Shown here in pieces: positions 10,907-49,620 of a stretch of DNA of 64,000 bases. The notes under the pieces were generated by a model, which saw only the letters and a list, made by a program, of their open reading frames with translations, searched no databases and was not told the DNA's origin. Origin of the DNA: an uncultured Lachnospiraceae bacterium (GTDB lineage Bacteria; Bacillota; Clostridia; Lachnospirales; Lachnospiraceae); assembly GCA_947626435.1 (NCBI GenBank), contig CANQSB010000013.1, positions 1 to 64,000 on the forward strand, given 5' to 3'. Numbering within the stretch: the first letter of the stretch is position 1; the number at the start of each line of letters is the position of its first letter. Made by a program: the position numbers and the translations under genes.

Positions 10907-10939
10907 GCATAAATGTGCGAATTGTCCAAATTTTCCTAT

Positions 10940-10968: not shown

Positions 10969-11023
10969 GTATTTATAAAATCCAGACCCAAAGCCTAAAT
11001 ATGAAAGCAGGAGATATATTTAT

Positions 11024-12286: not shown

Positions 12287-12316
12287 ATTATTATATTTGA
12301 TTTGGGCAATGATTCA

Positions 12317-12416: not shown

Positions 12417-12417
12417 G

Positions 12418-32009: not shown

Positions 32010-32615
32010 ATGAAAATGGGAAATGTTTACGGGTACGTGCGTGTTTCCACAAAGGAACAAAATGAGGACAGGCAGATGCTTGCAATGCTTGACATGAAGG
32101 TGCCGAGGAAAAATATTTATATGGATAAGCTGTCAGGGAAGGATTTTAACCGGCCGCAGTACCAAAAAATGATAAAAAAAATCAAGGCGGGCGATTTAAT
32201 TTACATAAAGTCAATAGACAGACTGGGCAGAAATTATGAGGAGATTATAGAGCAGTGGAGGATTATTACAAAGGAAAAGGGCGCTGACCTTTCCGTTATT
32301 GAGATGCCGCTGCTTGATACGCGTCATGAAAAAAATCTGCTGGGAACATTTATAAGCGACCTTGTGCTCGCGCTGCTTTCATATGTGGCTGAGAATGAGC
32401 GCGGCACGATAAAGCAAAGGCAGGCGGAAGGAATCGCGGCGGCAAAGGAGCGCGGTGTGCGCTTTGGAAGACCGCCCAAGGCGCTGCCTGAAAATTTTTA
32501 TGATGTGTGTAAAAAATGGGATGCCGGTATGCTTACAAATGAAGCGGCAGCGAAAGAATGTGGCATGCCGACGACCAGCTTTAGGAAACGGGCGGCTGAA
32601 TATAAAAAAGGCTAA
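32010..32615 (+). CDS. Small serine recombinase (invertase/resolvase type)
   Basis: 201 residues. The catalytic domain leads: YGYVRVSTKEQNEDRQ with nucleophile Ser13 and Arg11, YMDKLSGKDFNRPQYQKM, then IKSIDRLGRNYEEI with the catalytic Arg. A long E-helix (FISDLVLALLSYVAENER) and GIAAAKERGVRFGRPPK lead to a C-terminal HTH (about 165-200). This is the Hin/Gin/Tn3-resolvase layout; IS607 transposases place their DNA-binding domain first. AAAAGGAG precedes ATG 32010. The stop codon abuts a 26-bp dyad site that recurs inverted at 32748-32773, so the likely substrate is the segment between them. Confidence 0.92.
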   Translation: MKMGNVYGYVRVSTKEQNEDRQMLAMLDMKVPRKNIYMDKLSGKDFNRPQYQKMIKKIKAGDLIYIKSIDRLGRNYEEIIEQWRIITKEKGADLSVIEMPLLDTRHEKNLLGTFISDLVLALLSYVAENERGTIKQRQAEGIAAAKERGVRFGRPPKALPENFYDVCKKWDAGMLTNEAAAKECGMPTTSFRKRAAEYKKG

Positions 32616-32634
32616 AAAGTATACATTTTAGTCT
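32609..32634 (+). repeat. Left recombination site, 26-bp dyad
   Basis: Half-sites AGGCTAAAAAGTA and TACATTTTAGTCT are reverse complements at 11 of 13 positions. The site matches the reverse complement of 32748-32773 at 22 of 26 positions, including an uninterrupted 15-mer AAAAGTATACATTTT. It overlaps the recombinase stop codon. Size and symmetry match hix/gix-type crossover sites of serine invertases. Confidence 0.8.
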
Positions 32635-32747
32635 AAATTATATATCGGTAAAAATCCTAAAAGTTTAATGCTATTTTACAAAAAAATCAGGGGTAAGTCA
32701 ATATTTTTTTTGTGCACATTTAATATATCCTGCATCCAAGATTTTAC
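32635..32747. other. Predicted invertible segment
   Basis: 113 bases lie between the two 26-bp inverted sites, directly behind a serine recombinase gene. The segment has no reading frame but carries a sigma-A promoter on the - strand (32673-32701). Inversion would turn that promoter towards the TnpB-like gene, with the -10 box moving to about 32704-32709, roughly 90 bases from the start codon. Confidence 0.7.
32673..32701 (-). promoter_or_regulatory. Sigma-A promoter inside the invertible segment, now pointing left
   Basis: On the - strand: TTGACT (32701-32696), a 17-base spacer, TAAAAT (32678-32673). Each box is 5/6 to consensus. In the present orientation it would give antisense RNA to the recombinase gene. 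Confidence 0.7.
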
Positions 32748-32773
32748 AAACCAAAATGTATACTTTTCTGCCT
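32748..32773 (-). repeat. Right recombination site, 26-bp, inverted copy of 32609-32634
   Basis: It contains AAAATGTATACTTTT, the exact reverse complement of the 15-mer in the left site, and matches that site at 22 of 26 positions overall. Its own dyad is weaker (8 of 13). It lies 28 bases ahead of the TnpB-like start. Confidence 0.8.
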
Positions 32774-32800
32774 GAATAGAATAGTTGGTGAGAGCAGGAA

Positions 32801-34141
32801 ATGATGCCAGATAAAAATACCGTAACAAAGACAATAGTACAGCATAGTTATGCGCTGACGGAAGAGAAGGTTTCATTTTTAAAAGGAATCGCGCAGGACT
32901 ATTCAAAGGTTAAAAATTATGTTTATCGGCGATATTCGGGCATACGCAATGTAAACAGGCTTACCCCTGTATATACTGTCCTTAATGAGATGCGCGTATG
33001 CGGCTTAAGACAGCAGCTTGATTTTCCGGTTGTATATTATGAGCTTGCCGTGGCTGATGCGGTAACAGATATCAAGAGCAATTGGAGCATAGTAAAAAAT
33101 AAAATAATCGACCTGATTAATGCAAATGAGAACCTCACGCATGACGACAGAGTTTATATATGCACCGTGTTTAAGATGAATGGCGTATTTTCGGCTGTTT
33201 TAAACGGTGAAGATTATGAAATGCCAAATAATTCCAAAGATCTTGAAATAAACGTGAAAAAATGCAACAACCTGATCCGCAGGCTTGTGCGAAAATATAT
33301 AAGTGTTCCCAAAACGGAGAACACAGACTCATTTAAAGTATCGCCGAATGGCTATAAATATAAGGATGGCGGTATATATCTTGTCAGCAGGATGCCGAGA
33401 CAGAGGGTGTTTCTGCCGCTTAAGGATAACAGGATATCTGACAGGCAGATACTTATTACGCTTAAAGGGCAGCAGGCGTTTCTGACAGTGCCCGTTGAAA
33501 CAAGGATAAAACAGCATGATGATTACACCAATACAGTGTACATATATATCGGGAACAGGGATATGATTACTCTGTCCAACGGAAATATTTATGGAGCAGA
33601 CCTTGAAAGCATAGTATATACGGAGACTGTGCGGCTGGACTTGAAAAACAGGGAGCGCGCCGCTCTTGTGAGAAATTACGAGAAACAGGCGGCGGATGGA
33701 AAAAATGACAAAGCCGCAAATATTGAGCGCAATAATCTCGGCAGGAAAAAGTATGACAGCATGAAAGCGCGGAGAAGGGCAAAGACACAGGACTTTATCA
33801 ATACGGAAATTAACAGGATGCTGCAGACGGAAAAACCCTCGCACATTGTGGTGACGAAGCCCGTACAAAAAAACAGGACAAAGTCCTATTCGAGAACTGC
33901 GAACCTGAAAATGAGCAGGAGTTTCAGCGCATATGTCAGACAGCGGCTGGCATTTAAATGTCAGGTCAATTCCATAACACTCACAGAGATCAATTCAAAG
34001 GGAACGGGAAGTGTGTGCTGTGTATGCGGCGGACAGGGAAAAAGACTGAAGGATAAATTTACCTGTGAAGTATGCGGCAATGAGACTACGATAGCTTTAA
34101 ATTCCGCCAAAAATATCGAAAAGAAGTTTAATCAAAAATGA
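32801..34141 (+). CDS. TnpB-like protein with predicted inactive RuvC site
   Basis: 446 residues. The N-terminal half has the TnpB/Cas12 pattern (LTEEKVSFLKGIAQDYSKV, LAVADAVTDIKSNW). The C-terminal third aligns with TnpB RuvC plus zinc ribbon: Cys406 or Cys407 with Cys409, then Cys422 and Cys425, and the end ALNSAKNIEKKF in place of DRDxNAAxNI. The three catalytic acids appear lost. GIDLG is YIYIG with Tyr249 for Asp; IVVED is IVVTK with Thr352 for Glu; the final Asp is Ala432. The frame is intact, so this is not a decaying gene. The start may be ATG 32801 or 32804, both close to AGCAGGA. Nuclease-dead TnpB homologues (TldR) are known RNA-guided repressors; by analogy this may bind DNA without cutting. 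Confidence 0.75.
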   Translation: MMPDKNTVTKTIVQHSYALTEEKVSFLKGIAQDYSKVKNYVYRRYSGIRNVNRLTPVYTVLNEMRVCGLRQQLDFPVVYYELAVADAVTDIKSNWSIVKNKIIDLINANENLTHDDRVYICTVFKMNGVFSAVLNGEDYEMPNNSKDLEINVKKCNNLIRRLVRKYISVPKTENTDSFKVSPNGYKYKDGGIYLVSRMPRQRVFLPLKDNRISDRQILITLKGQQAFLTVPVETRIKQHDDYTNTVYIYIGNRDMITLSNGNIYGADLESIVYTETVRLDLKNRERAALVRNYEKQAADGKNDKAANIERNNLGRKKYDSMKARRRAKTQDFINTEINRMLQTEKPSHIVVTKPVQKNRTKSYSRTANLKMSRSFSAYVRQRLAFKCQVNSITLTEINSKGTGSVCCVCGGQGKRLKDKFTCEVCGNETTIALNSAKNIEKKFNQK

Positions 34142-34163
34142 TTGAGTCATCAAACCGAAGAAT

Positions 34164-34381
34164 AAGCTGCCAACGGCGGCTTTACCGAAAGGATCAACGG
34201 TAAGATGCTTTAATAAATGGGGAAACTCACAGGCAACAAGTCGGCATTAGCTGAACAGGATAGTTTTCGCGTATGCCATGACCGCGACCTGAAAAAACGC
34301 GGAGCGAAGTGAAGGCATCGCCTTCACAGACGTATGCGGCATCGCCGAGTGCGTCGCGATAATCCTTATGATATAAGTAAG
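34164..34381 (+). ncRNA. Candidate structured guide (omega-like) RNA downstream of the TnpB-like gene
   Basis: Within the 270-base non-coding gap there are successive hairpins: AAGCTGCC / GGCGGCTT (34164-34182), TTACCG / CGGTAA (34182-34203), CCGCG / CGCGG (34282-34302), GTGAAGGC / GCCTTCAC (34309-34327, loop ATC), CGGC / GCCG (34337-34347, loop ATC) and CCTTA / TAAGG (34363-34381). GGCATCGCC occurs twice. The stretch is richer in G and C than its flanks. TnpB guide RNAs lie at or beyond the 3' end of the gene. Boundaries and any guide segment are unknown; a cis-regulatory leader of the next gene is the main alternative. Confidence 0.5.
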
Positions 34382-34411
34382 GAAAGACTTTCAAAAAATC
34401 GGGGTAAGGTT

Positions 34412-35758
34412 ATGAGAAAGGCACAGAAGGAACTGGCTAAGAATTTAATAAAACTGCTGGAGCAGACGCATGACCAAATAAGGAATGACATCGAAAAACA
34501 GGATGTTCAGGATGCCCTTATGCTTTTGGCGGATTGTCAGGAAAAGGCGATTGAGCTCGGGACTATGATAGAAAAGTCCGAGGGAGATGGCCGTAAAGCC
34601 GTGTCTATGCTTGAGGAATACTGCGAGATGGCGTATCAGATTTATGATAAGCTCTCGAACGGAGAGGAAGTTGGCGCTAATAAGGCTTACAAGACTTTAA
34701 GGCAGCAGATAGTGAGAGTGTCAAACAGCGTGGCTAATGACATTGTGGTGAGGAAAGAGGTCGTGTTTATACCTTACAAGGCTTCGATGTGGGACAGCCT
34801 TGAGAGTGTATGGAGAGCAGCGGATGTTGATGCGGAATGTGATGCGTATGTTGTGCCTATACCATATTATGATAAGAACCCTGACGGGAGCCTGAAGGAG
34901 TGGCATTATGAGATAGATGAATACCCGAAGGATGTGCCTGTAGTGGATTACAGGGAGTATGATTTTGAAGGAAGGCATCCTGATGTTATATACTTCCATA
35001 ATCCATATGATAATTATAATCTCGTGACGAGCGTGGAACCGTTTTTTTATACGGAGAATTTAAGGAAGTATGCGGACAAGCTGGTTTACATACCGTATTT
35101 TGTGTTGGACGAGATTTCACCTGATGATGATGCAGCGATACGAGGGATGGCGCATTTCTGCACAACGCCCGGAGTAGTGAATGCCGACGAGGTTATCGTG
35201 CAGTCGGAGGATATGAAGAAGGTGTATGTGAAGGTGCTTTCCGAAAAGTATGGTGAGGAGAGCAGGAAGGTATGGGAGGAGAAGATACTCGGGCTTGGTT
35301 CGCCTAAGCTTGATAAGGTGGCGAATACGAGGAAAGAGGAGCTTGAGATACCGCGGGAGTGGAGACGAATAATTGAAAAGCCTGACGGAAGTTGGAAGAA
35401 GATAGTCTTTTATAATACAAGTATTGCGGCGTTATTGGAGCATAATGAGAAGATGCTTGAGAAGATGAAAGACGTGTTTCGTATCTTTGAGGAAAATAAA
35501 GATGAAGTGGCGCTGCTGTGGAGACCGCATCCTTTGATAAAGAGTACGGTGGAGGCTATGAGACCTAAGCTTTGGGAGGAGTATGAGAAGATTGTTGAGG
35601 AATACAAGGCTGAAGGCTGGGGGATATATGATGATACGGCTGACGTGGACAGGGCTGTGGTGATTAGTGATGCGTATTATGGGGATGGGAGCAGCGTGGT
35701 GCAGATGTATAAGAGGACTGGGAAGCCGATTATGGTGCAGAATGTGGATGTAGTATAG
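34412..35758 (+). CDS. CDP-glycerol glycerophosphotransferase-like protein
   Basis: 448 residues. The first 110 are helical and charged, probably coiled coil. The rest resembles the GT-B-like CDP-glycerol:polyglycerophosphate transferase fold: VVFIPYKASMWDSLESVW, DVIYFHNPYDNYN, LVYIPYFV, ILGLGSPKLDKV, KKIVFYNTSIAALLEH, LLWRPHPLIKS and VISDAYYGDGSSVVQMY. The RPHP and S-D-x-Y-G-D-x-S motifs are characteristic. No membrane segment is seen. The frame is open up to 34334 through the hairpin region, but ATG 34412 has GGGGTAAGG just upstream and is preferred. First gene of the glycan island; the donor is unknown. Confidence 0.7.
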   Translation: MRKAQKELAKNLIKLLEQTHDQIRNDIEKQDVQDALMLLADCQEKAIELGTMIEKSEGDGRKAVSMLEEYCEMAYQIYDKLSNGEEVGANKAYKTLRQQIVRVSNSVANDIVVRKEVVFIPYKASMWDSLESVWRAADVDAECDAYVVPIPYYDKNPDGSLKEWHYEIDEYPKDVPVVDYREYDFEGRHPDVIYFHNPYDNYNLVTSVEPFFYTENLRKYADKLVYIPYFVLDEISPDDDAAIRGMAHFCTTPGVVNADEVIVQSEDMKKVYVKVLSEKYGEESRKVWEEKILGLGSPKLDKVANTRKEELEIPREWRRIIEKPDGSWKKIVFYNTSIAALLEHNEKMLEKMKDVFRIFEENKDEVALLWRPHPLIKSTVEAMRPKLWEEYEKIVEEYKAEGWGIYDDTADVDRAVVISDAYYGDGSSVVQMYKRTGKPIMVQNVDVV

Positions 35759-35824
35759 TAGCATTATTGCATAATTTGTACATAAAGAATATATGCTCTG
35801 CTGTTTATGAATAGGGTAATGGAT

Positions 35825-36802
35825 ATGAAGATATTAGTTACAGGCGCAGACGGTTTTATAGGAAGCCATCTGACGGAAGAGTTAGTAAAAAAAGGGTATA
35901 AGGTAAGAACTTTTGTATACTATAATTCGTTCAATACTTGGGGATGGCTTGATATACTGCCTGACAGCATTATGGAGAATGTAGAGATATTTCAGGGGGA
36001 TATCAGAGATCCAAACGGAGTTGAAGAAGCGGCTAAAGGTATGGATGCAGTTTTTCATCTGGCAGCTTTGATAGCAATTCCGTTTAGCTATTATTCGCCT
36101 GACACATATGTTGATACGAATATAAAGGGAACGTTGAATATACTGCAGGCTGCCCGAAAACAAAATTTAAAGAGGGTATTGATTACGTCTACATCAGAAG
36201 TTTATGGCACAGCGCAATATGTTCCAATTGATGAAAAGCACCCTTTTCAGGGGCAATCACCGTATTCGGCTACTAAAATAGCGGCTGACAGATTGGCAGA
36301 GAGTTTTTATCGTTCGTTTGGACTGCCTGTTACAATAGTACGCCCGTTTAATACATATGGACCAAGGCAGTCGGCAAGGGCGGTTATTCCTACGATTATC
36401 ACACAACTTCTGAGTGGAAGAACAGAGATTAAGCTTGGTTCTCTCACACCGACAAGAGACTTTAATTATGTAAAAGATACAGTAAATGGATTTATTTCAA
36501 TATATGAATCGGATAAAACGATAGGCGAAGAAATTAATATAGCTACACAAAAAGAAATATCAATAGGCGACATGGCAAAAGAGCTAATTAAGCAGATTAA
36601 CCCCAACGCTCAAATTGTCTGTGATGAGCAAAGGCTGAGACCTGAAAAAAGTGAAGTCAACAGGCTGTTGGGATGTAATGAAAAAATAATGCGCCTGACA
36701 GGCTGGAAACCGCAATATGATTTGGAAAAAGGACTCGCCGAAACAATATCTTTTTTTGAGACCAATATAAATAAATATAAAGCGAATATTTACAATATTT
36801 AG
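35825..36802 (+). CDS. legB: NAD-dependent nucleotide-sugar 4,6-dehydratase, LegB-like
   Basis: 325 residues of an extended SDR: ILVTGADGFIGSHLTEEL (NAD loop), AALIAIPFSYYSPDTYVDTN, STSEVYGTA (Ser/Thr), PYSATKIAADRLAESF (Tyr-x3-Lys) and RPFNTYGPRQSARAVIPTII. The full-length match to LegB, the first step of legionaminic acid synthesis (GDP- or UDP-GlcNAc to the 4-keto-6-deoxy sugar), is good. ATG 35825 has GGGTAATGG upstream; ATG 35807 and 35819 are alternatives. The next gene encodes a PtmE-like guanylyltransferase, which suggests that the GDP-linked route is used. Confidence 0.85.
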   Translation: MKILVTGADGFIGSHLTEELVKKGYKVRTFVYYNSFNTWGWLDILPDSIMENVEIFQGDIRDPNGVEEAAKGMDAVFHLAALIAIPFSYYSPDTYVDTNIKGTLNILQAARKQNLKRVLITSTSEVYGTAQYVPIDEKHPFQGQSPYSATKIAADRLAESFYRSFGLPVTIVRPFNTYGPRQSARAVIPTIITQLLSGRTEIKLGSLTPTRDFNYVKDTVNGFISIYESDKTIGEEINIATQKEISIGDMAKELIKQINPNAQIVCDEQRLRPEKSEVNRLLGCNEKIMRLTGWKPQYDLEKGLAETISFFETNINKYKANIYNI

Positions 36803-36845
36803 GGTCGTATTTCGCGGATAAGAACAGAAATGAGAATATAGCGCT

Positions 36846-37934
36846 ATGAATATAGAAGTAAATGTATTAAACGACATAGCAGACAATATCATATATGAGA
36901 CTGAAAATCTGAAAACGGCATTGGAGACACTTGAAAGAGCCTTTTTTAAGGTGTTGTTTGTAATTAATCGTGAAGATATATTTGTTGCCGCAATGACGGA
37001 TGCGGATGTCAGAAGGGCAATTTTAGCAGGAGCGTTACTGGAAAGCCCTATTTCACAAGTTGCTAATTATCACCCTAAATATATGAAGTATGATGATATA
37101 AATCTGGCAAAACAGTTTTTAGAGAAAGTGACAGCGTTGCCTGTTATTGATGAAAATGGGAAAATTGTAAAAATATATACAAGGGCTTATAAAAGACCTA
37201 TTGGCGATATTGATAAACTGAATCTCCCGGTAGTTATTATGGCGGGTGGAAAAGGAACGAGATTATATCCATATACCAAGATATTACCTAAACCACTGAT
37301 TCCCATTGCAGACATACCAATTTCTGAAAGAATCATACAGATGTTCCAAAAAATGGGATGTGATGAATTTCATATGATTGTTAATTATAAAAAGAGTATG
37401 ATTAAAGCTTATTTTAATGACATTGACTGCCAATATAACTTAAAATTCTGGGATGAAACAGAGCCGCTTGGTACAGGCGGTGGTTTGATATTTTTGAGGG
37501 ACAGTATAAGCAGTACGTTTATTTTGACAAACTGTGACATAATTATTCTGGATGATGTCAGAAAGATAGTGAAGCATCACAGAGAAGCAGGAAATAAAGT
37601 AACAATGGTATGTTCGTTAAAAAATTATGAGATACCATATGGCATTGTGAAATTTTCAGAAGGAGGAGACATCAAATCCTTTGAGGAAAAACCCAAGATG
37701 TCATTTTTCACAAATACAGGATATTATATTTTGGAAAAAGATGTTTTTAAATACATATGTGACGCTGAGAAAGCAGATATGCCTGAAATTATTGAAAAAA
37801 TGAGGCAGTCGGGAGAAAAAGTCGGAATTTATCCTATTGGGGAAAATTCATGGCTTGATATGGGGCAGTTTGACACTATGGATAGCATGGAGGTCAAAAT
37901 AAAGGGAATGAATATGTGTTTGTGGGATGCTTGA
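36846..37934 (+). CDS. ptmE: CBS-domain sugar nucleotidyltransferase, PtmE-like
   Basis: 362 residues. Residues 1-120 form a CBS pair (VLFVINREDIFVAAMTDADV, then LPVIDENGKIVKIYT). Residues 125-355 are an NTP-transferase: VVIMAGGKGTRLYPYTKILP, KPLIPIADIPISERII, and TNCDIII with the metal Asp. PtmE in Campylobacter has the same CBS plus transferase layout and makes GDP-glucosamine for legionaminic acid. Adjacent to legB, which supports that role. Ribosome binding site weak (GAGAA); probably read through from legB, 43 bases upstream. Nucleotide specificity cannot be read from the sequence. Confidence 0.82.
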   Translation: MNIEVNVLNDIADNIIYETENLKTALETLERAFFKVLFVINREDIFVAAMTDADVRRAILAGALLESPISQVANYHPKYMKYDDINLAKQFLEKVTALPVIDENGKIVKIYTRAYKRPIGDIDKLNLPVVIMAGGKGTRLYPYTKILPKPLIPIADIPISERIIQMFQKMGCDEFHMIVNYKKSMIKAYFNDIDCQYNLKFWDETEPLGTGGGLIFLRDSISSTFILTNCDIIILDDVRKIVKHHREAGNKVTMVCSLKNYEIPYGIVKFSEGGDIKSFEEKPKMSFFTNTGYYILEKDVFKYICDAEKADMPEIIEKMRQSGEKVGIYPIGENSWLDMGQFDTMDSMEVKIKGMNMCLWDA

Positions 37935-38014
37935 ATAATTTAATAACTATTATGTTTGGCGGTACATCAAAATAGGAAAGAAATACTTTATAGGTATGTG
38001 GGGAGACATATGTC

Positions 38015-38959
38015 ATGATAAAGATAGGATATTTTGCAGATGGTCCATGGGCGCATAAGGCGTTTGATAAAATTATGGCTGATGCATCTATAAAAATTGT
38101 TTTTATGACAGTCAGGTATGATAAGCGTGACAATATTTTGCTGCAGAAAGCTGAAGAGAATAGTATACCGATAGAGCTTAGCGCTAATATCAATTCACAG
38201 GAGTTTATTGACAGAATTAAAGAATATGGAGCTGACTTGTTTGTGTCGATGTCATTTAACCAGATTTTCAAGAAGCAGATGATAAATCTGCCCAAATATA
38301 AAACCATAAACTGCCATGCCGGAAAGCTTCCGTTTTACAGAGGCAGGAATATACTTAATTGGGTATTGATTAATGACGAGAAGGAGTTCGGTATTACTGC
38401 TCATTATATGGATGAAGGAATAGATACAGGAGATATTATAGTACAGGAAACATATCCTATCACAGATAATGATGACTATGGCACTCTGCTTGAAAGGGCA
38501 TATGACGGATGTGCAGATGTTCTGTATAGGGCTATTAAACTGATTCAAGATAATAAAGTGGAGCGGATTAGCCAGTATGATATTGATCCTGTTGGAATGT
38601 ATTGTGGTATGAGAGTGCCGGGGGATGAAATAATAGATTGGAATCAAAGCAGCAGAGAAATATTTAATTTCATCAGAGCTTTGGCATTACCTGGTCCTCA
38701 GGCTGTTTCGTGGATTAATGGAAAGAAAATAAGCATTAATCGGGCAAGAATGGTTCATGGAAGCTGCATATATAAGAATACAACAGGTCAGATTGTAGGA
38801 AAAACGGATGGTGGCTTTTATGTAAAAACAAAAGATACGATTTTGGAAGTAGTTGATTATGTTTATGATGGTAAGATAAAAATAGGAGATAGATTACAAA
38901 ATACGGGGGGGGGGTATAACACTCTAGGAATTATGCCTCATCGGGGGTGTGCGGCATGA
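38015..38959 (+). CDS. Sugar N-formyltransferase-like protein with a poly-G tract
   Basis: 314 residues. The formyltransferase catalytic set is present: NCHAGKLPFYRGRN (Asn and His) and HYMDEGIDTGDII (Asp), as in ArnA-type and WlaRD/VioF-type sugar formyltransferases that use N10-formyl-tetrahydrofolate. The C-terminal part (about 200-300) resembles the OB-like domain of methionyl-tRNA formyltransferase. The likely substrate is a 4-amino sugar nucleotide of the nonulosonate route. A run of ten G (38905-38914) lies 15 codons before the stop. GGGGAG precedes ATG 38015. The stop overlaps the next start as ATGA. Confidence 0.82.
   Translation: MIKIGYFADGPWAHKAFDKIMADASIKIVFMTVRYDKRDNILLQKAEENSIPIELSANINSQEFIDRIKEYGADLFVSMSFNQIFKKQMINLPKYKTINCHAGKLPFYRGRNILNWVLINDEKEFGITAHYMDEGIDTGDIIVQETYPITDNDDYGTLLERAYDGCADVLYRAIKLIQDNKVERISQYDIDPVGMYCGMRVPGDEIIDWNQSSREIFNFIRALALPGPQAVSWINGKKISINRARMVHGSCIYKNTTGQIVGKTDGGFYVKTKDTILEVVDYVYDGKIKIGDRLQNTGGGYNTLGIMPHRGCAA
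38905..38914 (+). repeat. Homopolymer tract G10 inside the formyltransferase gene
   Basis: Ten consecutive G in an otherwise AT-rich gene. The displayed length keeps the frame open to TGA 38957-38959. With nine G the frame would end at TAG 38925-38927, and with eleven at TAA 38917-38919. Confidence 0.9.
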
Positions 38960-39648
38960 ATGCAGCACAGAATCTGAAGCCATGGAATGGATTGCCGTTA
39001 CTTATTTTTGGAACATCAGGAATTTCAAAGGAAGTCAAGAATGTAATTGATGAAATTAATGCTGAAAATCCTGTGGATGTTTATGAAATTATTGGATTTG
39101 TTTCTGAATGTAAAAAAGACGTAGGAAGCATTATATCTGAATGCGGAGTAGTGTGTTGCGATGAGGATTTTGAAGATTATATAAAAGAGTATGTTCAGCT
39201 CGGCGTGGTGATACCATTAGGGACACCTGCCATAAAAAAGAAAATTGTAGAAAAAATAGCTGCTTATCCCAATTTAGTATATCCTAATATCATTTCGCCA
39301 TCAGCTAAAATAATGGACAAGCATACTGTTGAAATGGGAGTAGGAAATATTATATGCAGTGGGTGTATTTTAACTACCGAGATTAAAATAGGCAGTTTTA
39401 ATCTGATTAATATTAATTCCACAATAGGACACAACGTAATAATAGGAAATTATGGAGTAATTAATCCTCTTGCTTCTGTGTCGGGTGGAGTTAAGGTAGC
39501 GGATGAGGTACTTCTTGGGGCGGGATGTGCTGTGAAGCAAGGGATATCAGTAGGGAAAAAGAGTATTGTGGGATTGGGAGCAATAATAGTGAAAGATGTT
39601 GATGAAGACTCTGTAATGATATGCAAAGCGGCTGAAAGGAAAAAATGA
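38956..39648 (+). CDS. legH: PglD/NeuD-type sugar O- or N-acetyltransferase
   Basis: 230 residues from ATG 38956, overlapping the previous stop. Residues 10-100 are the PglD-type Rossmann part (LLIFGTSGISKEVKNVIDE). Residues 105-225 are a left-handed beta helix with hexapeptide repeats (VGNIICSGCILTTEIKIGSF, NVIIGNYGVIN, VLLGAGCAVKQGISVGKKSI, IVGLGAIIVKDV). The His of IGHNVIIG is the probable catalytic base. In nonulosonate clusters this protein (LegH, PglD or NeuD) acetylates the 4-amino group. It and the formyltransferase may compete for the same amine. Confidence 0.85.
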   Translation: MNAAQNLKPWNGLPLLIFGTSGISKEVKNVIDEINAENPVDVYEIIGFVSECKKDVGSIISECGVVCCDEDFEDYIKEYVQLGVVIPLGTPAIKKKIVEKIAAYPNLVYPNIISPSAKIMDKHTVEMGVGNIICSGCILTTEIKIGSFNLININSTIGHNVIIGNYGVINPLASVSGGVKVADEVLLGAGCAVKQGISVGKKSIVGLGAIIVKDVDEDSVMICKAAERKK

Positions 39649-40649
39649 TGGACAAAGGAATATTTATAATTGCCGAGGCAGGAGTAAACCACAATGGTGA
39701 TATAAATATTGCCAAGCAGCTTGTGGATGCGGCTGTGGAGGCAAGAGCGGATGCTGTGAAGTTTCAAACGTTTATTGGTGAAAAATGCGTTTCTTCAAAG
39801 GCAGAAAAGGCGGCATACCAAAAACAGACGGTTGGGGAAGCTGGCAGTCAGCTTGATATGATAAAAAAGCTGGAGCTGCCACAGGATGCTTTCTGTGTGT
39901 TAAAGGAATATTGTGAGAAGAAGAAAATCAAGTTTATGTCTACTGCTTTTGATATTGACAGCGCTATGTTTTTGAATGATATAGGAGTTGATGTTTTCAA
40001 GATACCTTCTGGAGAGATAACAAATTATCCATTATTAAAAATAATAGGGCAGTTCAAAAAAAGAGTGATTATGTCTACAGGTATGAGTGAAATTCCTGAA
40101 ATAAAAGCTGCTATTGATATATTAAAACAATATGGAACTAATGACATATCAGTCCTGCATTGCAACACACAGTACCCTACACCAATGGAGGATGTTAATC
40201 TGAAAGCTATGCAGCAGCTAAGGAATGAACTGGACTTGCCTATAGGATATTCTGATCATACCTTGGGAATTGAGGTGGCGATTGCAGCAGCCGCGTTGGG
40301 AGCAGAAATCATTGAAAAGCATTTTACTATGGACAGAAATATGGAAGGTCCGGATCACCAGGCGAGTCTTGAGCCTGACGAGCTAAAAAAAATGGTTGCG
40401 GGAATACGTAACATAGAAAAAGCGCTTGGCGACGGTATAAAAAGAGTATCGCCATCAGAAAAGGAAAACCTTAATATAGTCAGAAAGAGCATTGTAGCTT
40501 TAGTGGCGATAAATAAAGGTGATGTGTTTACAGAGGATAATATCACAGTAAAGCGACCTGGTAATGGCATTTCGCCAATGAGATGGAATGAGGTTATTGG
40601 AAAGAAAGCAGCGAGGAACTTTGAAGCAGATGAGCTGATTGAAATATGA
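39648..40649 (+). CDS. legI: Nonulosonic acid synthase (N,N'-diacetyllegionaminate-type)
   Basis: Condenses a 2,4-diacylamino-hexose with PEP to give the nine-carbon acid. 333 residues. The NeuB barrel comprises FIIAEAGVNHNGDINIAKQL, AVKFQTF, FKIPSGEITNYPLL, STGMSEIPEI, LHCNTQYPTP, GYSDHTLGIE and IEKHFTMDRNMEGPDHQASL. The C-terminal SAF antifreeze-like domain (about 275-330) contains RKSIVALVAINKGDVFTEDN. ATG 39648 is 7 bases from AAAGGA; ATG 39645 is in frame. Overlaps both neighbours. Legionaminate rather than sialate is suggested by the LegB/PtmE/LegH neighbours. Confidence 0.9.
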   Translation: MDKGIFIIAEAGVNHNGDINIAKQLVDAAVEARADAVKFQTFIGEKCVSSKAEKAAYQKQTVGEAGSQLDMIKKLELPQDAFCVLKEYCEKKKIKFMSTAFDIDSAMFLNDIGVDVFKIPSGEITNYPLLKIIGQFKKRVIMSTGMSEIPEIKAAIDILKQYGTNDISVLHCNTQYPTPMEDVNLKAMQQLRNELDLPIGYSDHTLGIEVAIAAAALGAEIIEKHFTMDRNMEGPDHQASLEPDELKKMVAGIRNIEKALGDGIKRVSPSEKENLNIVRKSIVALVAINKGDVFTEDNITVKRPGNGISPMRWNEVIGKKAARNFEADELIEI

Positions 40650-41812
40650 AGAAGATTTGTATAGTAACAGGGACGAGGGCTGAGTACGGATTGTTAAAGC
40701 CCGTAATTGAAAAAGTGCACAAAGCGGAAGATATGGAGCTGCAGCTTGCTGTTACGGGGATGCACCTTTCAAGTGAATTTGGACTTACCTACTGTGAGAT
40801 TGAAGACGATGGCTATCCGATAAGCGGCAAGATAGAAATGCTGCTTAGTTCAGATACTACAGTGGGCATTACTAAGTCAATGGGTGTAGCGTTGATGGGA
40901 TTTGCTGATTATTTTGAAGAGAACCGACCTGACATAGTTGTTATTTTGGGCGATAGGTATGAAATGCTTATGGTGGCATCAGCTGCAATGATTGCGAGAA
41001 TACCGATAGCACACATACACGGAGGGGAAAAGACAGAGGGTGCAATAGATGAGGCGATAAGGCATTGCATTACCAAGATGAGCCACCTGCATTTTACTTC
41101 GACAGAGGAATACAGAAGAAGGGTGATACAGCTTGGGGAACAGCCGCAGAATGTGTATAATGTCGGGGCACTTGGCATAGAGAGTATAAGAATGCTGAAA
41201 CTTATGCAAAAAGAAGAACTGGAGAAAAATTTAGGCTTTGATTTCAAAGAGCATACAATTATGGTGACATATCACCCTGTCACGCTTGAAAATATGACTT
41301 CTAGGGAACAGTTTGCCAATATCTTGAGTGTTATTGATAAACATAAGGATATCTTTGTGATATTTACCAAGGCGAACTCGGACACGGACGGTAGGATAAT
41401 TAATCATATGATAGACGAGTACGCGGCGCGTAATAGCGATAAGTGCAAGGCATTTATGTCGTTGGGACAATTAAGGTATCTGAGTACATTGCAGTTTTGC
41501 ACCGCGGTTGTCGGAAATTCGTCAAGCGGTATTGTGGAAGCACCGTCTTTTGGAATACCGACCGTCAACATTGGCGACAGGCAGAAAGGAAGGGCAAGTG
41601 CTGAGTCGGTAATACATTGTGGAAACAGCATTGAAGAAATAGAGAATGCGTTGGAACTTGCCATGTCGGAAAATTTCAGAAAGAAGGCAAGAACTGTCAA
41701 AAACCTGTATGAAAAAGCTGGGACATCGGACACGATAATTAAAGTGATAAGGGATGCCCTGGATAACGGGATTAATATAAAGAAAGAATTTTATGATATT
41801 ACATATGGTTAA
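40646..41812 (+). CDS. legG: Hydrolysing nucleotide-sugar 2-epimerase, NeuC/LegG-type
   Basis: 388 residues. GT-B-like 2-epimerase: ICIVTGTRAEYGLLKPVIEK, VTGMHLSSEFG, VILGDRYEMLMVASAAMIAR, IAHIHGGEKTEGAIDEAIRH, TYHPVTLE and VGNSSSGIVEAPSFGIP. LegG removes the nucleotide and inverts C2 to give the 2,4-diacylamino-mannose precursor for LegI. It starts with an ATGA overlap of legI, a typical coupled operon. In legionaminate loci this gene precedes LegF; here a protease module separates them. Confidence 0.9.
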   Translation: MKKICIVTGTRAEYGLLKPVIEKVHKAEDMELQLAVTGMHLSSEFGLTYCEIEDDGYPISGKIEMLLSSDTTVGITKSMGVALMGFADYFEENRPDIVVILGDRYEMLMVASAAMIARIPIAHIHGGEKTEGAIDEAIRHCITKMSHLHFTSTEEYRRRVIQLGEQPQNVYNVGALGIESIRMLKLMQKEELEKNLGFDFKEHTIMVTYHPVTLENMTSREQFANILSVIDKHKDIFVIFTKANSDTDGRIINHMIDEYAARNSDKCKAFMSLGQLRYLSTLQFCTAVVGNSSSGIVEAPSFGIPTVNIGDRQKGRASAESVIHCGNSIEEIENALELAMSENFRKKARTVKNLYEKAGTSDTIIKVIRDALDNGINIKKEFYDITYG

Positions 41813-41967
41813 AACCTCCGCGGTAAAAAGCGGACAGTATATATAAAATTCGAACTTTGACAACTGAATACCTTACATTAGGAGCAAGAAGTGATTGAGA
41901 TTATCAGGTGCATATGCTATCATTATTACAGATACTAGGAAAAAGCTTAAAAAGGTATGGTGATTAT

Positions 41968-42225
41968 ATGCTGCATGTTTTAAATCAAACAGACATCAAA
42001 TCGTTTAATACAGTCAAAAGAGAGTTCCCTTATAGCAGAATACTAATGCAGATTGCTTCATTGGATGATGGTGAGGGACAACTGCTGGCAGTGAGCGACT
42101 CAGAAGATTCAGATGATGACTTATGTAAAAAACTGCACGAGTACTTGGAAAAGGACATTCTGTGTATTATCATTGGAAGCTATGTGCAGGGGGGAGAAAG
42201 AAATGCTATATACAGTGTCAGATGA
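41968..42225 (+). CDS. Small acidic protein paired with a retropepsin-like protease
   Basis: 85 residues from ATG 41968 (AAAAGGT upstream; the open frame begins at 41908). It is acidic in the middle (SDSEDSDDDLCKKL) and has the text FPYSRILMQIASLDDGEGQL and DILCIIIGSYVQGG. It overlaps the following protease gene by 23 bases. Small genes of this kind precede retropepsin-like genes in Lachnospiraceae, as I recall. Function unknown; a pairing of toxin-antitoxin style would be speculation. Confidence 0.6.
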   Translation: MLHVLNQTDIKSFNTVKREFPYSRILMQIASLDDGEGQLLAVSDSEDSDDDLCKKLHEYLEKDILCIIIGSYVQGGERNAIYSVR

Positions 42226-42670
42226 CGGGATATTTACTGTTAATTGCGAATTATATATACTTGAAAAAAGAAACGCGGCGATGCAGTTTATCATTGACAC
42301 TGGAGCCAGCATAACATGCTGTAGGGCGAAAGAACTGGGAGTAAATCTGGAGGAAGAAGATTTTATTGTAAACAAGGCATCTGTCAGATATTTGAATGGT
42401 GTCTTAAAAGAGGGAAACAAGGAATACAGTAGGGACAGATACAGCATTAAATTTTATGAAGTAAAGATGAACAAACTAAAGATTGGAACTTCAATAGTTT
42501 TGGAGAATGTGTCGGTATGGATTACCTTTGACAAACGTTTTTATACCTGCCTAATGGGACAGGATATACTGGACAAGCTATATTATATGCATTGGAGCAA
42601 CACGAAAAAACTTCTTATAGCTGATAATGCGAATGATTTGAGAGAGTATGTGGATTGTATGGAGGACTGA
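42203..42670 (+). CDS. Retropepsin-like aspartic protease domain protein
   Basis: 155 residues from ATG 42203, with GGGGGGAGAAAG upstream; the open frame extends to 42113 within the previous gene. The catalytic motif is FIIDTGASITCC (D-T-G-A-S), at about residues 30-40. LMGQDILDKLY near the end is the usual G-x-D-x-L flap-after motif of single-domain retropepsins such as TasA-like or clan AA proteases. No membrane anchor is seen. Sits between LegG and the CMP transferase gene, although nothing ties it to sugar metabolism. Confidence 0.78.
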   Translation: MLYTVSDDGIFTVNCELYILEKRNAAMQFIIDTGASITCCRAKELGVNLEEEDFIVNKASVRYLNGVLKEGNKEYSRDRYSIKFYEVKMNKLKIGTSIVLENVSVWITFDKRFYTCLMGQDILDKLYYMHWSNTKKLLIADNANDLREYVDCMED

Positions 42671-42715
42671 AAAAAGAAATACAAAAATAGGATATAATTA
42701 ATTAAATATGGAAAT

Positions 42716-42783
42716 AAAAATCCCAATGTAAGGTATGCGGTTGAAAGGACAGTAATCGAGACAGCATTACATTGGGATTTTTT
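42716..42783 (+). terminator. Long hairpin with T-run before the CMP transferase gene
   Basis: Arms AAAATCCCAATGTAA and TTACATTGGGATTTT (15 bp, 35-base loop) followed by further T. TATAAT lies just upstream (42693-42698). It may end the protease transcript or act as an attenuator for the CMP transferase gene, whose start is 22 bases on. Confidence 0.75.
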
Positions 42784-42805
42784 ATTGTTGGAAAGGAGAT
42801 TTGGA

Positions 42806-43492
42806 GTGGGTAGTTTAGGAATAATAACTGCCAGAAGCGGTTCTAAAGGTATTAGAGATAAGAATATCCGCCAGTTGGCAGGTAAGCCTCTGATTGCCTA
42901 TACAATAGAAAGCGCACTTCAAAGCCGATACATTGACGAAGTGATGGTATCTACAGATTCTGACATTTATGCATCAATAGCAAAAGATTACGGTGCAAAT
43001 GTGCCGTTCTTGAGAAGTGCCGAAAACTCTACAGATACCGCGAAATCGGTTGATGTGGTATTTGAAGTACTGGAAGGATATGAAAGGCTCGGACGGTATT
43101 TTAACAATTTTGTACTTTTGCAGCCGACCTCGCCATTGCGTACATATAAAAACATTGATGATGCATTTCAATTTTTTTACGAAAAGGATGCTGATTCAAT
43201 AGTAAGCGTATGCGAATGTGAATACAGTCCTCTGCTGAGTAATGTTCTGCCTGATGATTTGAGTTTATTTGGATTTATTAAAGACGAGAATATGGGAAGA
43301 AGGCAGGACTTTGAGAAGTACTACAGACTTAATGGCGCGATTTATATTTCAAAGATAGGTGCGTTTAAGGACAGCCATACATTTTATGGGAAGAGCTCAT
43401 ATGCATATGTTATGAATCGGCAGGAGTCAATTGACATAGATACTGAGGATGACTTTGCGTATGCGGAATTTTTGATGAGGAAGGTTTTATAA
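42806..43492 (+). CDS. legF: CMP-nonulosonate cytidylyltransferase, NeuA/LegF-type
   Basis: Activates the nine-carbon acid with CTP. 228 residues from GTG 42806, with AAAGGAG 7 bases upstream; the frame is open to TTG 42785, which sits in the preceding terminator. Motifs are GIITARSGSKGIRDKNIRQL (P-loop-like), PLIAYTIESAL, VSTDSDIYA, LLQPTSPLRT, RLNGAIYISK and the metal site SIDIDTEDDFAYAE. Completes the legionaminate set except for the aminotransferase. The next start overlaps its stop by one base. Confidence 0.9.
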   Translation: MGSLGIITARSGSKGIRDKNIRQLAGKPLIAYTIESALQSRYIDEVMVSTDSDIYASIAKDYGANVPFLRSAENSTDTAKSVDVVFEVLEGYERLGRYFNNFVLLQPTSPLRTYKNIDDAFQFFYEKDADSIVSVCECEYSPLLSNVLPDDLSLFGFIKDENMGRRQDFEKYYRLNGAIYISKIGAFKDSHTFYGKSSYAYVMNRQESIDIDTEDDFAYAEFLMRKVL

Positions 43493-44469
43493 TGAGCGAA
43501 GGGATTATGAAAAAACATATGAAAGAACGTTTGGGGAAGGTGATAAATTTTTGCGAAAATCCGCCGTTGCCTCAATCGTTAAACATAGAGCTAAACAGTA
43601 CATGCAATCAGAGCTGTATATTTTGTCCATTTCATGGTAAGTATGCACCAAGCAAACCATTTCTTACGGTTATGAAAAAGAGTGATGCCATAGCACTGAT
43701 TGATATGGCGAAGATGTATGGAATAGGGAAAAAAGAAATAGGGTTTTATTTGGCAGGTGAAGCATTTTTATATAAAGATCTGGCGGAGGTTATCGAGTAT
43801 GCAAAAAAGTCAGGATTTATTTATACATTTATCACAACAAATGGCGCTTTTGCCACGCCGGATAAGATGAGAGAAGTTTTGGATGCAGGATTGGATAGCC
43901 TTAGGATATCAATTAATGCTGCTGATAGGGAAATGTATCAAGAATTACATGGCAGAGATGATTTTGACAAGGTGCTTGAAAACCTGAAATATATGCATGA
44001 CTATATCAAAGAAAATGCACTAAAGGTGGCAACTTCCATTTCCTGCGTGATTACAAAAAAAACAATGGGAATACAGAAAGAATTTAAAAAGCTATTTGGT
44101 GAATATGTCGATGATATTCTTTTTATTCCGGTTATGCTGCAAAGGCTTAATTATGATGAGCAGTTTATACATGAATATCAGGTTATTGACGATTCACAGA
44201 CAGAGGTAAAATCTGATTTTGTTTGTCCTATTTTGTTCGATACTATGTATATCAATGCCAATCTGGAGGTGGTGCCATGCTGCGAGGCGTATGATACAAA
44301 TTGTGTGTTTTACGATTTGAAACAGGATTTTGATCTTAAAAATGCATGGAACAGTGACGGATATAAAGCGTATAGAAAATTGTATTTAAATAGTGGAGAT
44401 TTAACAGATACTATATGTGAAAAATGTACGTTAAGAATGAAAGGTATAGAAAGGTTTTCTTTAGAATGA
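43492..44469 (+). CDS. Radical SAM/SPASM protein, first of a pair
   Basis: 325 residues. The [4Fe-4S] motif CNQSCIFCPFHG gives C-x3-C-x2-C near residue 37. FYLAGEAFLYKDLAEVIEYA, TTNGAFATPDKM and LDSLRISINAADREMYQ are the usual barrel strands. The C-terminal cysteines (VVPCCEAYDTN, CEKCTLRMKG) form a SPASM-like auxiliary cluster. Such proteins sit in many O-antigen and glycan loci, where the reaction is undefined. Coupled to legF upstream (1-base overlap) and to the second radical SAM gene downstream (ATGA). ATG 43507 is an alternative start. Confidence 0.82.
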   Translation: MSEGIMKKHMKERLGKVINFCENPPLPQSLNIELNSTCNQSCIFCPFHGKYAPSKPFLTVMKKSDAIALIDMAKMYGIGKKEIGFYLAGEAFLYKDLAEVIEYAKKSGFIYTFITTNGAFATPDKMREVLDAGLDSLRISINAADREMYQELHGRDDFDKVLENLKYMHDYIKENALKVATSISCVITKKTMGIQKEFKKLFGEYVDDILFIPVMLQRLNYDEQFIHEYQVIDDSQTEVKSDFVCPILFDTMYINANLEVVPCCEAYDTNCVFYDLKQDFDLKNAWNSDGYKAYRKLYLNSGDLTDTICEKCTLRMKGIERFSLE

Positions 44470-45320
44470 TTTTGAAAAAATTTCCAAATGAAATAATGAT
44501 TGAAGCAACAAATTGCTGCAATAATATGTGCTTTTTCTGTGGAAGCATGGTGAGTAAAAGACCTAGAGGGTATATAAATTCAAATCTGATGTATAAACTT
44601 ATTGATGAGGCATATAGGGAAGGGGCAAGGAAAATAAGTTTTCATGGTATGGGCGAACCGTTAATGTGTAAAGATCTTGCCGGCTATGTAGAAGCGGCTA
44701 AGCGAGCAGGCTATAAATATATTTATTTGGATACGAATGGAGTATTGGCAACACCGGAGATCATGTTTCCAGTAATAGATGCTGGATTGGATAGCTTGAA
44801 ATTTTCTATTCACGCTGCGACAAAGGAAACATACCAAAAAATTACGAATAATGATGCGTTTTGTCAGGTAAAAGAAAATTTTATTAAGACAAGTGATTAT
44901 ATCAAAAATACAGATAGCAGCTGTAAGCTGATAGCATATTTTGCAGAGAGTACTATTAATTGTACCGAGAAAGAAGCTTTTTTAAATATTTTTGAGCAGT
45001 ATGCAACTGAATTGTGGATAAAACCGATACATAACGCATCTGGGGCAAAACCTGAAAATGCAAATCTTTCAGTTGACGGTGATGTTGTGGCAACTAAAAA
45101 ATTACCATGCATAGATTTGAACAGAATGATTATCAATTGGGAAGGAAAGGCAATTGCATGCTGCACAGATTGGACAGGCAGTTTGATTTATGGAGATGTC
45201 AATACATGTTCCTTGCAGGAATTATGGAACTGCGAGAAGATTTTGGAGATCCGAAAATCTCAGGAAGAGCTTATCGGTTTAAATGAGATTTGCAGGAAGT
45301 GTGCAGGAATGATGTACTGA
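44466..45320 (+). CDS. Radical SAM/SPASM protein, second of a pair
   Basis: 284 residues. CNNMCFFCGS provides C-x3-C-x2-C; FHGMGEPLMCKDLAGYVEAA, DTNGVLATPEIM and LDSLKFSIHAATKETYQ follow; the SPASM cysteines are in IACCTDWTGS and CRKCAG. It is clearly a paralogue of the preceding protein, with the same blocks at similar spacing. The open frame reaches 44424, but ATG 44466 overlaps the previous stop as ATGA and is preferred. Substrate unknown; probably a sugar or peptide intermediate of the island. Confidence 0.82.
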   Translation: MILKKFPNEIMIEATNCCNNMCFFCGSMVSKRPRGYINSNLMYKLIDEAYREGARKISFHGMGEPLMCKDLAGYVEAAKRAGYKYIYLDTNGVLATPEIMFPVIDAGLDSLKFSIHAATKETYQKITNNDAFCQVKENFIKTSDYIKNTDSSCKLIAYFAESTINCTEKEAFLNIFEQYATELWIKPIHNASGAKPENANLSVDGDVVATKKLPCIDLNRMIINWEGKAIACCTDWTGSLIYGDVNTCSLQELWNCEKILEIRKSQEELIGLNEICRKCAGMMY

Positions 45321-45403
45321 AAGTGATTGTTTGAAATATGTACGGAGTTAATATGGATAAGAAGAAATTATATTTTTTAAATACTGTTTAAAGGAGTTTT
45401 TTC

Positions 45404-46561
45404 ATGAAAAAAAACAATGGTATTTTGTATTGGATTACAGGATTGTCTGGGGCAGGAAAAACAACAATAGGAAATAGGCTATATTATGCGCTTCGGGAAA
45501 AGTATGATAATGTAATTTTGTTTGATGGAGATGTTTTAAAAAACATTGTTAGTGATAGTTTGGGATATAGTGATAAGGATAGACGTAAAAGAGCAAAGAA
45601 GTATGCGTTTTTGTGTAAAAATCTTACAGATCAAGGAATGATTGTAATATGCTGTACAATAGCGATGTACGAAGATGTTAGGCAATGGAATCGTTTAAAT
45701 AATAAGGCATATTGTGAAATTTTTTTGGACGTTCCAATGGATATTTTGAAAAAGCGTGATCAAAAGGGCATGTATTCACAATATGAAAATGGAAATATTA
45801 ATCATATTGCAGGGGTTGATATAGAAGTAGAATTCCCCAAAACACCAGATATAGTTTTGAAGAATGATGGAAGTCTTACAGTACAACAGTGCGTTGATCA
45901 AATATTAAAATTTAAAATAAAAAAATCAGTTGATTTTGATAGGGATGTCACATATTGGAATAATTACTATGATAGCGCTGTTTGTCTGCAAGAACCATCA
46001 TTATTTGCAAAGTTTTCAATGGATAATATGGAAAAAAATAAGACTTTATTGGAACTAGGATGTGGAAATGGCAGAGATAGTATATTCTTCGCAAAGAATA
46101 ATTTAAATGTAATAGCAATTGACGCATCGGATATTGCAATTGATACATTGCAAAAAAATAATAATATGGAAAATGCCTGTTTTATTTGTGATGACTTTGT
46201 TTGTTCGTCTACATTGTTTGTGAGCCAGTATGATTATTGTTATAGCAGGTTTTCCCTACATGCAATCAATGAAGAACAAGAGGTCGAAATGATAAAAAAT
46301 GTGTATAGTTCTTTAAAAAAGGGTGGAAAATTTTTTGTTGAAGTTAGAAGTATACATGATGATTTGTTTGGAAAAGGAGAAAAAGTTGGTCGTAATGCCT
46401 TTTTTTATGATGGTCATTACAGAAGATTTATAGTTAAGGAAGAAATAGAAACAAAATTGCGGAAGGAGAAATTTTATATAGATTATTCTTGTGAAGATAA
46501 AAATTTTGCACCTTACGGTGAGAGTAATCCACCAGTCATCCGTATTATTGCAAGAAAGTAA
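45404..46561 (+). CDS. APS kinase-like P-loop kinase fused to a class I methyltransferase
   Basis: 385 residues. Residues 1-165 resemble adenylylsulfate kinase: ILYWITGLSGAGKTTIGNRL (Walker A), LFDGDVLKNIVSD and LTDQGMIVICCTIAMYEDVR. Residues 175-385 are a SAM methyltransferase: LLELGCGNGRDSIFFAKNNL (motif I), VIAIDASDIAIDTL, and YDYCYSRFSLHAI. A CysC-like protein (Cj1415) in the Campylobacter capsule locus is a cytidine diphosphoramidate kinase beside methyltransferases, which is a relevant precedent. Here the partner enzymes of that pathway are not seen. AAAGGAG precedes ATG 45404. AT-rich like its neighbours. Confidence 0.8.
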   Translation: MKKNNGILYWITGLSGAGKTTIGNRLYYALREKYDNVILFDGDVLKNIVSDSLGYSDKDRRKRAKKYAFLCKNLTDQGMIVICCTIAMYEDVRQWNRLNNKAYCEIFLDVPMDILKKRDQKGMYSQYENGNINHIAGVDIEVEFPKTPDIVLKNDGSLTVQQCVDQILKFKIKKSVDFDRDVTYWNNYYDSAVCLQEPSLFAKFSMDNMEKNKTLLELGCGNGRDSIFFAKNNLNVIAIDASDIAIDTLQKNNNMENACFICDDFVCSSTLFVSQYDYCYSRFSLHAINEEQEVEMIKNVYSSLKKGGKFFVEVRSIHDDLFGKGEKVGRNAFFYDGHYRRFIVKEEIETKLRKEKFYIDYSCEDKNFAPYGESNPPVIRIIARK

Positions 46562-46610
46562 ATGAAATATGAATGGTTATAATAAAATAGATAATTATGA
46601 GGAAGACGCA

Positions 46611-49579: not shown

Positions 49580-49620
49580 AAATATAATTAATTAAGAACT
49601 GTATGTAAAAAGGGAGAATT

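Follow-up and report, generated by a model that had tools for sequence, protein, structure and literature searches.

A nuclease-dead TnpB-like protein and its structured RNA as a probable regulator in switchable surface-glycan loci of Lachnospiraceae

TldR proteins, nuclease-dead relatives of TnpB, repress genes by RNA-guided binding, and the csrA-TldR loci of gut Bacillota, which target fliC, are the closest precedent for the locus described here; hin lies upstream of most of these loci and inversions of ~120 bp around the promoter are reported for one species (PMC13418256). Here we describe a comparable arrangement in a stretch of 64,000 nucleotides from an uncultured Lachnospiraceae bacterium (positions 1 to 64,000 of contig CANQSB010000013.1, assembly GCA_947626435.1; hereafter the window), the genome that holds it being a 3.7 Mb draft. 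A first-pass annotation of the window had proposed a phase-variable, RNA-guided regulator made of four adjacent parts, namely a recombinase, an invertible promoter, a nuclease-dead TnpB-like protein and a structured RNA, lying ahead of a nonulosonate/flagellin-type glycosylation island. All four parts are present where it had placed them (Table 1), and we think it probable, with considerable room for doubt, that they represent a family in which a dead TnpB-omegaRNA complex was exapted as a regulator in phase-variable surface-glycan loci. The relatives on which this reading draws came from a scan of genome contigs that returned 221, of which the best 80 loci were kept; adding the window, the paralogue in its genome and six more loci gives the studied set of 88, the sources being mainly Lachnospiraceae, judged by record titles. 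Contigs L028-L032, present twice, were counted once, and L037, which carries a premature stop, was left out of the protein alignment, the mapping of catalytic residues and the protein tree.

The loci of this set are like the csrA-TldR loci in combining a dead TnpB homologue with promoter inversion and in occurring several times per genome, the RNA of the published loci being a guide RNA. They differ in that linkage to csrA and fliC belongs to the published loci, whereas surface-glycan operons and tyrosine-recombinase versions belong to ours; a motif search for csrA-like starts within 4 kb found none at the 88 loci. It is by gene neighbourhood that we set the glycan-linked clade apart from csrA-TldR. 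Phage-encoded TldR repressors of flagellin have the same dead RuvC domain and kinship with TnpB, together with a guide RNA, but their setting is prophage and flagellin, while the present loci are phase-variable candidates linked to glycan genes. Capsule loci of Bacteroides offer another parallel, in that promoter switches worked by the serine invertase Mpi stand before glycan loci whose first genes, UpxY and UpxZ, are regulators. A serine-invertase switch with regulator genes first is thus common to both, but UpxY and UpxZ, unlike the window protein, are not TnpB-like, and we know of no structured RNA partner at their loci. LoaP, a regulator also found at capsule genes, is an antiterminator and NusG paralogue; Pfam found no NusG-type domain in the window protein, whose fold points to TnpB. 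LoaP is linked to capsule clusters, and megabase inversions change capsule expression, so that a capsule-linked regulator and inversions are shared with our loci, while the megabase scale and the NusG-type protein belong to LoaP (PMC13174815). In one gut bacterium the capsule promoter is reported not to have been phase-variable under the conditions tested (PMC13121745). Our search of the open-licence literature found no report of TnpB-like proteins at glycan loci. Nuclease-dead TnpB regulators are already known, one switchable example having been published in 2026; as far as our searches reach, the glycan setting, the clade with its RNA, the two recombinase classes and the orphan RNAs described below are new.

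The window protein matches NCBIfam guided_TnpB (E 3e-15, under the cut-off of that model) and Pfam Cas12f1-like_TNB (E 1.4e-7), and its predicted fold is of the TnpB/Cas12f kind, resembling DNA-bound TnpB and Cas12f; the protein alignment used for the fold (A3) kept 69 of 80 rows, near-copies having been removed. All three RuvC catalytic residues are absent. The RuvC-I Asp, replaced by Tyr in the window protein, is gone in 83 of 87 members, and the RuvC-II Glu and RuvC-III Asp are likewise missing from the window protein, the RuvC-III column retaining Asp in 5/87 and Glu in 40/87. TnpB-like genes of the family have dN/dS ratios of 0.067-0.259, and the zinc finger is unchanged across the 69 aligned members. 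By this comparison the dead protein is under purifying selection, and its designation as a nuclease-dead TnpB-like protein stands on both the missing RuvC residues and the TnpB/Cas12f matches. The same scan also found four clostridial IStron TnpBs which, unlike the other members, have an intact active site, and which have no candidate inverton: three copies in Oceanirhabdus seepicola (L091, L094 and L098) and one in Clostridium rectalis (L103). These share the right end AGAACCAG (4/4) and the left end GGAGCAAC (seen in 3/4), and a group I intron lies upstream of L091.

The 270-nt interval between the TnpB-like gene and the glycan operon of the window holds the structured RNA, which is conserved 3' of the gene with the pattern GGCATTAG ... 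GCCARGACC ... GAGCGAAG ... CCAATATGCCTTAT. An alignment of 41 sequences (A2, taken from 50 candidate rows) has 91.2% of its cells paired under the proposed structure, which shows 200 two-sided changes, compared with 58 +/- 8 in shuffled alignments and 27-49 with the partners slid, a count that favours the structure because the structure was selected on the same alignment. The pseudoknot helix has two-sided changes at 3/4 pairs, and the copy of Rfam that was searched held no relevant match. A covariance model, built from 41 of 87 sources, recognised the RNA core of the window at E 9.6e-15, the window being in its training set, and detected the RNA beside the gene in 81 of the 87, including 40 of the 46 sources that had not contributed to it. 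Its six misses are the four intact TnpBs, L061 (where the contig ends) and L099. When the model was run unfiltered over 84 kb, its three best matches fell exactly behind the three Oceanirhabdus TnpB genes, with E values of 0.0004-0.0095 that are modest singly and telling by position. Most simply, the RNA is a descendant of an omegaRNA.

Protein and RNA were also searched for separately. Among 299 genomes of the family, strong matches to the protein (E < 1e-39) and strong matches to the RNA (E < 1e-10) mark the same nine; weak protein matches occur in eight more genomes and weak RNA matches in two, G102 (within a gyrase-like gene, by eye) and G203, the latter matches being treated as false. In the whole genomes behind 11 studied loci, all 27 RNA matches, which include the studied loci themselves, have the gene within 1.5 kb, and several paralogues occur per genome, each with its RNA. 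The structured RNA noticed in the window is a conserved, covarying partner found nearly always beside the gene.

Additional observations concern the RNA itself. L044 has a second copy (4591-4721), one gene further downstream of the TnpB-like gene. At L088 (11716-12047) two partial matches to the RNA model flank a repeated insert of ~50-100 nt, which looks like a single RNA enlarged by repeats. A motif near AATGAGCCGTGC stands right after the RNA core at 8/83 loci (L086, L089, L109, L110, L112, L115, L167 and L168), compared with 4/1520 control windows; at some of them a long hairpin seems, by eye, to come next, and the motif is a candidate 3' extension of the RNA or a candidate small leader open reading frame.

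The recombinase of the window has its catalytic domain at the N-terminus, the resolvase domain starting at residue 6. Its nearest NCBIfam models are XisF and the Mpi invertase (E 1.4e-12 for Mpi), both far under cut-off, and with 23.9 bits on the IS607 model, which has a cut-off of 110, it does not class as an IS607 TnpA-type transposase. The inverted repeat that follows it is 24 nt long and 88% complementary, with arms 117 nt apart, and the arm motif, allowing one mismatch, has 7 matches in the genome, all at its two TnpB-like loci, the pattern read backwards giving 2 as a control. Homologues of this serine recombinase lie next upstream in 7 and second upstream in 1 of the 88 loci, and all 8 have an inverted-repeat score of at least 12. 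Across the 80 loci with usable upstream DNA, to which all inverton counts refer, a score of at least 12 within 500 nt upstream was reached at 35; among 236 regions upstream of other genes in these loci it was reached by 10, and the maximum in 240 shuffles was 12. Spacers measure 95-140 nt in 32 of the 35, and 31 of these 32 carry the core AAAANGTRTASNTTTT with at most 2 mismatches.

A tyrosine recombinase is found at another 29 loci (Phage_integrase in the three cluster members scanned), its gene sharing the direction of the TnpB-like gene at 22 and facing the other way at 7. Repeats, mostly of the TTTTCGCAGA...TCTGCGAAAA type, enclose this gene in 27 of the 29, and controls at that score gave 0/87 shuffles and 2/25 downstream regions of the same size. 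A candidate inverton of serine or tyrosine type is thereby present at 63/80 loci, including L093, which scored 11, was added by hand and has a segment that aligns with the others. On the protein tree the recombinase class switches at least 4 times by well-supported branches and 6 times by parsimony. The presence of two unrelated recombinase families before the same protein-RNA unit suggests selection for a switchable regulator.

Both orientations of the serine-type segment occur among the relatives, 23 homologous segments dividing 17 vs 6 with 99/99 pairwise alignments consistent. L082 and L106, from one metagenome-assembled genome, have collinear flanks, between which a 418-nt segment carrying a TTGACA-17-TATAAT promoter is inverted, and the pairs L063/L064 and L066/L067 also carry oppositely oriented segments. 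In L064 and L072 the 5' region of the TnpB-like gene is duplicated, inverted and without a single difference, within about 1 kb upstream of the gene; these duplications are probably assembly artefacts, and the L063/L064 inversion is for this reason weaker than that of L082/L106. The segment of the window aligned solely with those of L055 and L027, in the same orientation throughout. In the larger orientation set the conserved promoter pattern faces away from the TnpB-like gene, as it does in the window, and because it points away we read the window, provisionally, as OFF; taken alone, the promoter-like site of the window is weak, such sites numbering 8 in the scanned region vs 6.1 expected.

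Paired serine-type repeats were found at 6 further sites in four genomes, 4 of them TnpB-RNA-glycan loci and 2 beside other genes. The latter are L165 (4127-4281), beside a regulator and a 1793-aa protein (by eye), and L166 (6069-6213), beside a secreted 852-aa protein (by eye), both without a TnpB-like gene. No TnpB-like gene lies near the single arm-motif sites L171-L173. Serine switches of this type may thus serve surface variation more widely.

Beyond the RNA, members of gene cluster c0 (Glyphos_transf-like) lie near 61/88 loci; the window member matches PF04464 and a long member has no Pfam match. The first plus-strand downstream gene of at least 150 aa belongs to c0 in 45/79 loci and to c3 in 10/79, the c3 member scanned being without a Pfam match. 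The position of the unit at the head of glycan genes, as first noticed in the window, thus recurs in relatives. Pfam names in the window's island include NeuB, a NeuC-type epimerase, a CMP-sugar transferase, LicD, a formyltransferase, an epimerase, an NTP transferase and sugar-nucleotide enzymes, the first four of which justify the label nonulosonate. The flagellin half of that label found no such backing: a search for N-terminal motifs gave no flagellin anywhere in the window, and among the 88 loci it picked out a flagellin-like N-terminus at just 1. This case is L036, where a 719-aa flagellin gene (10599-12758, minus strand) is directly upstream of a TnpB-like gene with RNA.

L055 is a 97% twin of the window, the head of the operon being common to both and the later genes different. 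On contig C5 of the window's own genome lies a paralogue, its TnpB-like gene 58% identical, with its own inverted repeat, its own RNA and the same first glycan gene downstream; no recombinase is among its four nearest called upstream genes. As a four-part order, the arrangement of the window is a recurrent unit in which the class of recombinase varies and which, at the C5 copy, has no recombinase among those four genes.

We propose that a TnpB family akin to the clostridial IStron TnpBs lost its nuclease and retained its fold and omegaRNA, and that the host would then have put the dead TnpB and RNA to use, encoded at the front of surface-glycan operons that are phase-variable. Inversion of a promoter segment ahead of the TnpB-like gene, by a recombinase of the serine or tyrosine class, would set the state, such that in the ON state the dead TnpB, the RNA and the glycan genes would be co-transcribed and in the OFF state none of them would. 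Like TldR, the protein-RNA complex would regulate under the direction of its RNA and without cleavage, its most likely object being surface-glycan genes of the same cell, and ancestry, fold and RNA make its RNA-guided binding to DNA likely. Comparison of sequences shows the loss of the catalytic residues, the purifying selection, the RNA with its structure, its co-occurrence with the protein, the invertons in both orientations among relatives and the recurrence at glycan loci; co-transcription, assembly of the complex, its guided binding to DNA, and which target it has and with what sign, are inferences.

Several observations weigh against this proposal, among them the favour that the covariation count owes to its own alignment. 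The fourth intact TnpB, L103, has no RNA behind its gene by the model, and 17/80 loci, four of them the intact TnpBs, have no candidate inverton. Of the six serine segments in the flipped orientation, those of L064 and L072 are on suspect contigs, and the on/off promoter switch of the first-pass annotation, seen in both orientations among relatives only, shows a single orientation in the window and its near twin. The guide searches also yielded no convincing target: a 20-mer guide with 3 mismatches gave two other weak sites in the window genome, both inside unrelated genes; candidate guides in two other genomes found the RNA loci themselves only; and the mean longest match stayed near the shuffled level, at 10.29 vs 9.88 shuffled within 70 own loci and 10.63 vs 10.08 shuffled in 32 comparisons among the loci that share a genome. 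In 17/71 loci at most 36 nt separate the RNA core from the next called gene, which leaves little room for a dedicated guide. The empty target searches nevertheless carry little weight, because published TldR guides can work at 6 nt, too short for such searches (PMC13418256).

Some candidate signals were rejected. A further set of 20 comparisons gave a raised mean of 11.65 vs 9.77, which is due not to targets but to three G348 paralogues sharing post-RNA sequence at the same place. The window guide matches 10 nt of the leader that precedes its paralogue's TnpB-like gene, a length at the shuffled level. Self-targeting, for which the 3' end of the RNA would bear a target-adjacent motif, drew no support from the IStron left ends, where no such motif was seen.

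It is possible, if on balance doubtful, that the RNA acts instead in cis, within the glycan-operon transcript as this is being made, with the dead TnpB as its RNA-binding factor and without DNA targeting, whether the effect falls on elongation, on RNA processing or on how the first gene is translated. Genome G283 speaks for such a role. It holds three orphan RNAs (L151, L152 and L153, two on contig C52 and one on C42) that have no TnpB-like gene alongside. Each follows, at a distance of 149-167 nt, a serine-type inverted repeat whose arms are 101-111 nt apart, and stands immediately before glycan genes; at the single intact TnpB-like gene of G283 the model finds no RNA. Orphan RNAs together with an RNA-less intact gene are more simply explained by a cis role and count against our proposal; the empty guide-target searches, and a next called gene within 60 nt of the RNA core in 31/71 loci, point the same way. 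A tblastn search of the 1.2-2.5 kb upstream of the orphan RNAs for TnpB-like remnants gave best E values of 0.004 to 0.066, taken as chance, and a second set of 116 genomes around G283 yielded the same positive genomes and no further orphan RNAs. An RNA acting in cis is harder to reconcile with its near-constant place beside the protein gene, in the 81 of 87 sources as in the 27 of 27 whole-genome matches, with model matches positioned behind three of the four intact TnpBs, and with a predicted fold like that of DNA-bound TnpB and Cas12f. Simple attenuation in particular is unlikely, and a simple terminator switch was rejected, terminator-like sites between RNA and next gene numbering 0 vs 0.8 expected in the 71 loci; antitermination over a longer range may still operate. 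The first-pass annotation had held that parts occurring independently would tell against a joint function; recombinase class switches, the C5 copy with no recombinase among its nearest called upstream genes, inverted repeats beside two other gene sets and the three gene-less RNAs show such independence in part, but the protein-RNA pair is almost inseparable.

The orphan RNAs can be read as cis leaders or as RNAs that share one protein acting in trans. We entertain, tentatively and as a minority view, that the choice among surface glycans is RNA-directed: every switchable glycan operon may have an omegaRNA of its own, with one or more dead TnpB proteins serving all of these RNAs in trans and the RNA of the ON operon silencing competitors or licensing its own long operon. 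If this is true, G283, with one RNA-less intact protein gene and three orphan RNAs, each between an inverted repeat and glycan genes, would be a trans RNA-choice system laid bare.

The annotation's own simpler alternative, that the switch drives the glycan genes by read-through and the TnpB-like gene is a passenger or a decaying insertion sequence, appears improbable. Its catalytic residues are indeed gone, and one of the copies in G283 is decayed; at ten loci the gene immediately upstream of the TnpB-like gene belongs to c0, so that the switch can serve glycan genes directly, and same-type repeat pairs stand beside the TnpB-less genes of L165 and L166. A passenger is, however, at odds with the dN/dS ratios, the invariant zinc finger, the covariation of the RNA and its co-occurrence with the protein, and the several paralogues per genome that each have an RNA. 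An incidental TnpB-like protein is thus unlikely, because the unit recurs at glycan loci with a protein under purifying selection and a conserved structured RNA partner. That the complex steers or gates inversion and not glycan transcription is likewise improbable, for although TnpB-like genes adjoin recombinases here, and serine recombinase and TnpB are partners in IS607-type elements, the TnpB-RNA unit accompanies two unrelated recombinase classes with repeated changes of class, L027 has no adjacent recombinase, and same-type repeat pairs exist without the unit.

Table 1. Features of the locus in the window (positions within the 64,000 nucleotides).
Feature	Position	Strand	Basis or remark
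Serine recombinase, Hin/Mpi-like, 201 aa, candidate invertase	32010..32615	+	Pfam Resolvase E 6.6e-27
Inverted repeat, left arm, overlapping recombinase stop	32609..32632	.	Core motif common to relatives
Putative invertible promoter segment, from comparison with relatives	32633..32749	.	Serine-type segments of relatives in both orientations
Promoter-like site TTGACT-17-TAAAAT, facing away from TnpB-like gene	32701-32673	-	Assembled state would be OFF
Inverted repeat, right arm	32750..32773	.	Inverted-repeat search
Nuclease-dead TnpB-like protein, 446 aa	32801..34141	+	NCBIfam, Pfam, residue mapping
RNA 5' domain, hairpin region with TTTACCG motif	34142..34239	+	33-locus alignment
OmegaRNA-like RNA core with pseudoknot; conservation stops about here	34240..34372	+	Covariance model, alignment
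Unconserved post-core stretch; putative guide and/or leader and ribosome-binding site of next gene	34373..34411	+	
First glycan-operon gene, Glyphos_transf-like, cluster c0	34412..35758	+	Pfam PF04464 E 5.1e-6
Nonulosonate/surface-glycan genes (island)	35807..50877	+	Pfam, 10 proteins scanned, one without match

Elsewhere in the window, and unrelated to these features, two tRNA genes (23399-23482, minus strand, and 23728-23811, plus strand) point apart.

The orphan RNA copies provide a clean handle on cis as opposed to guide action of the RNA. If the proposed regulator is true, surface polysaccharides would join the host processes taken over by nuclease-dead TnpB proteins, to our knowledge a short list, and would do so in gut bacteria, about whose control of glycan switching little is known. 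As read from the compared loci, the recurrent arrangement suggests recruitment of an RNA-protein regulator that governs which surface sugars a population displays.

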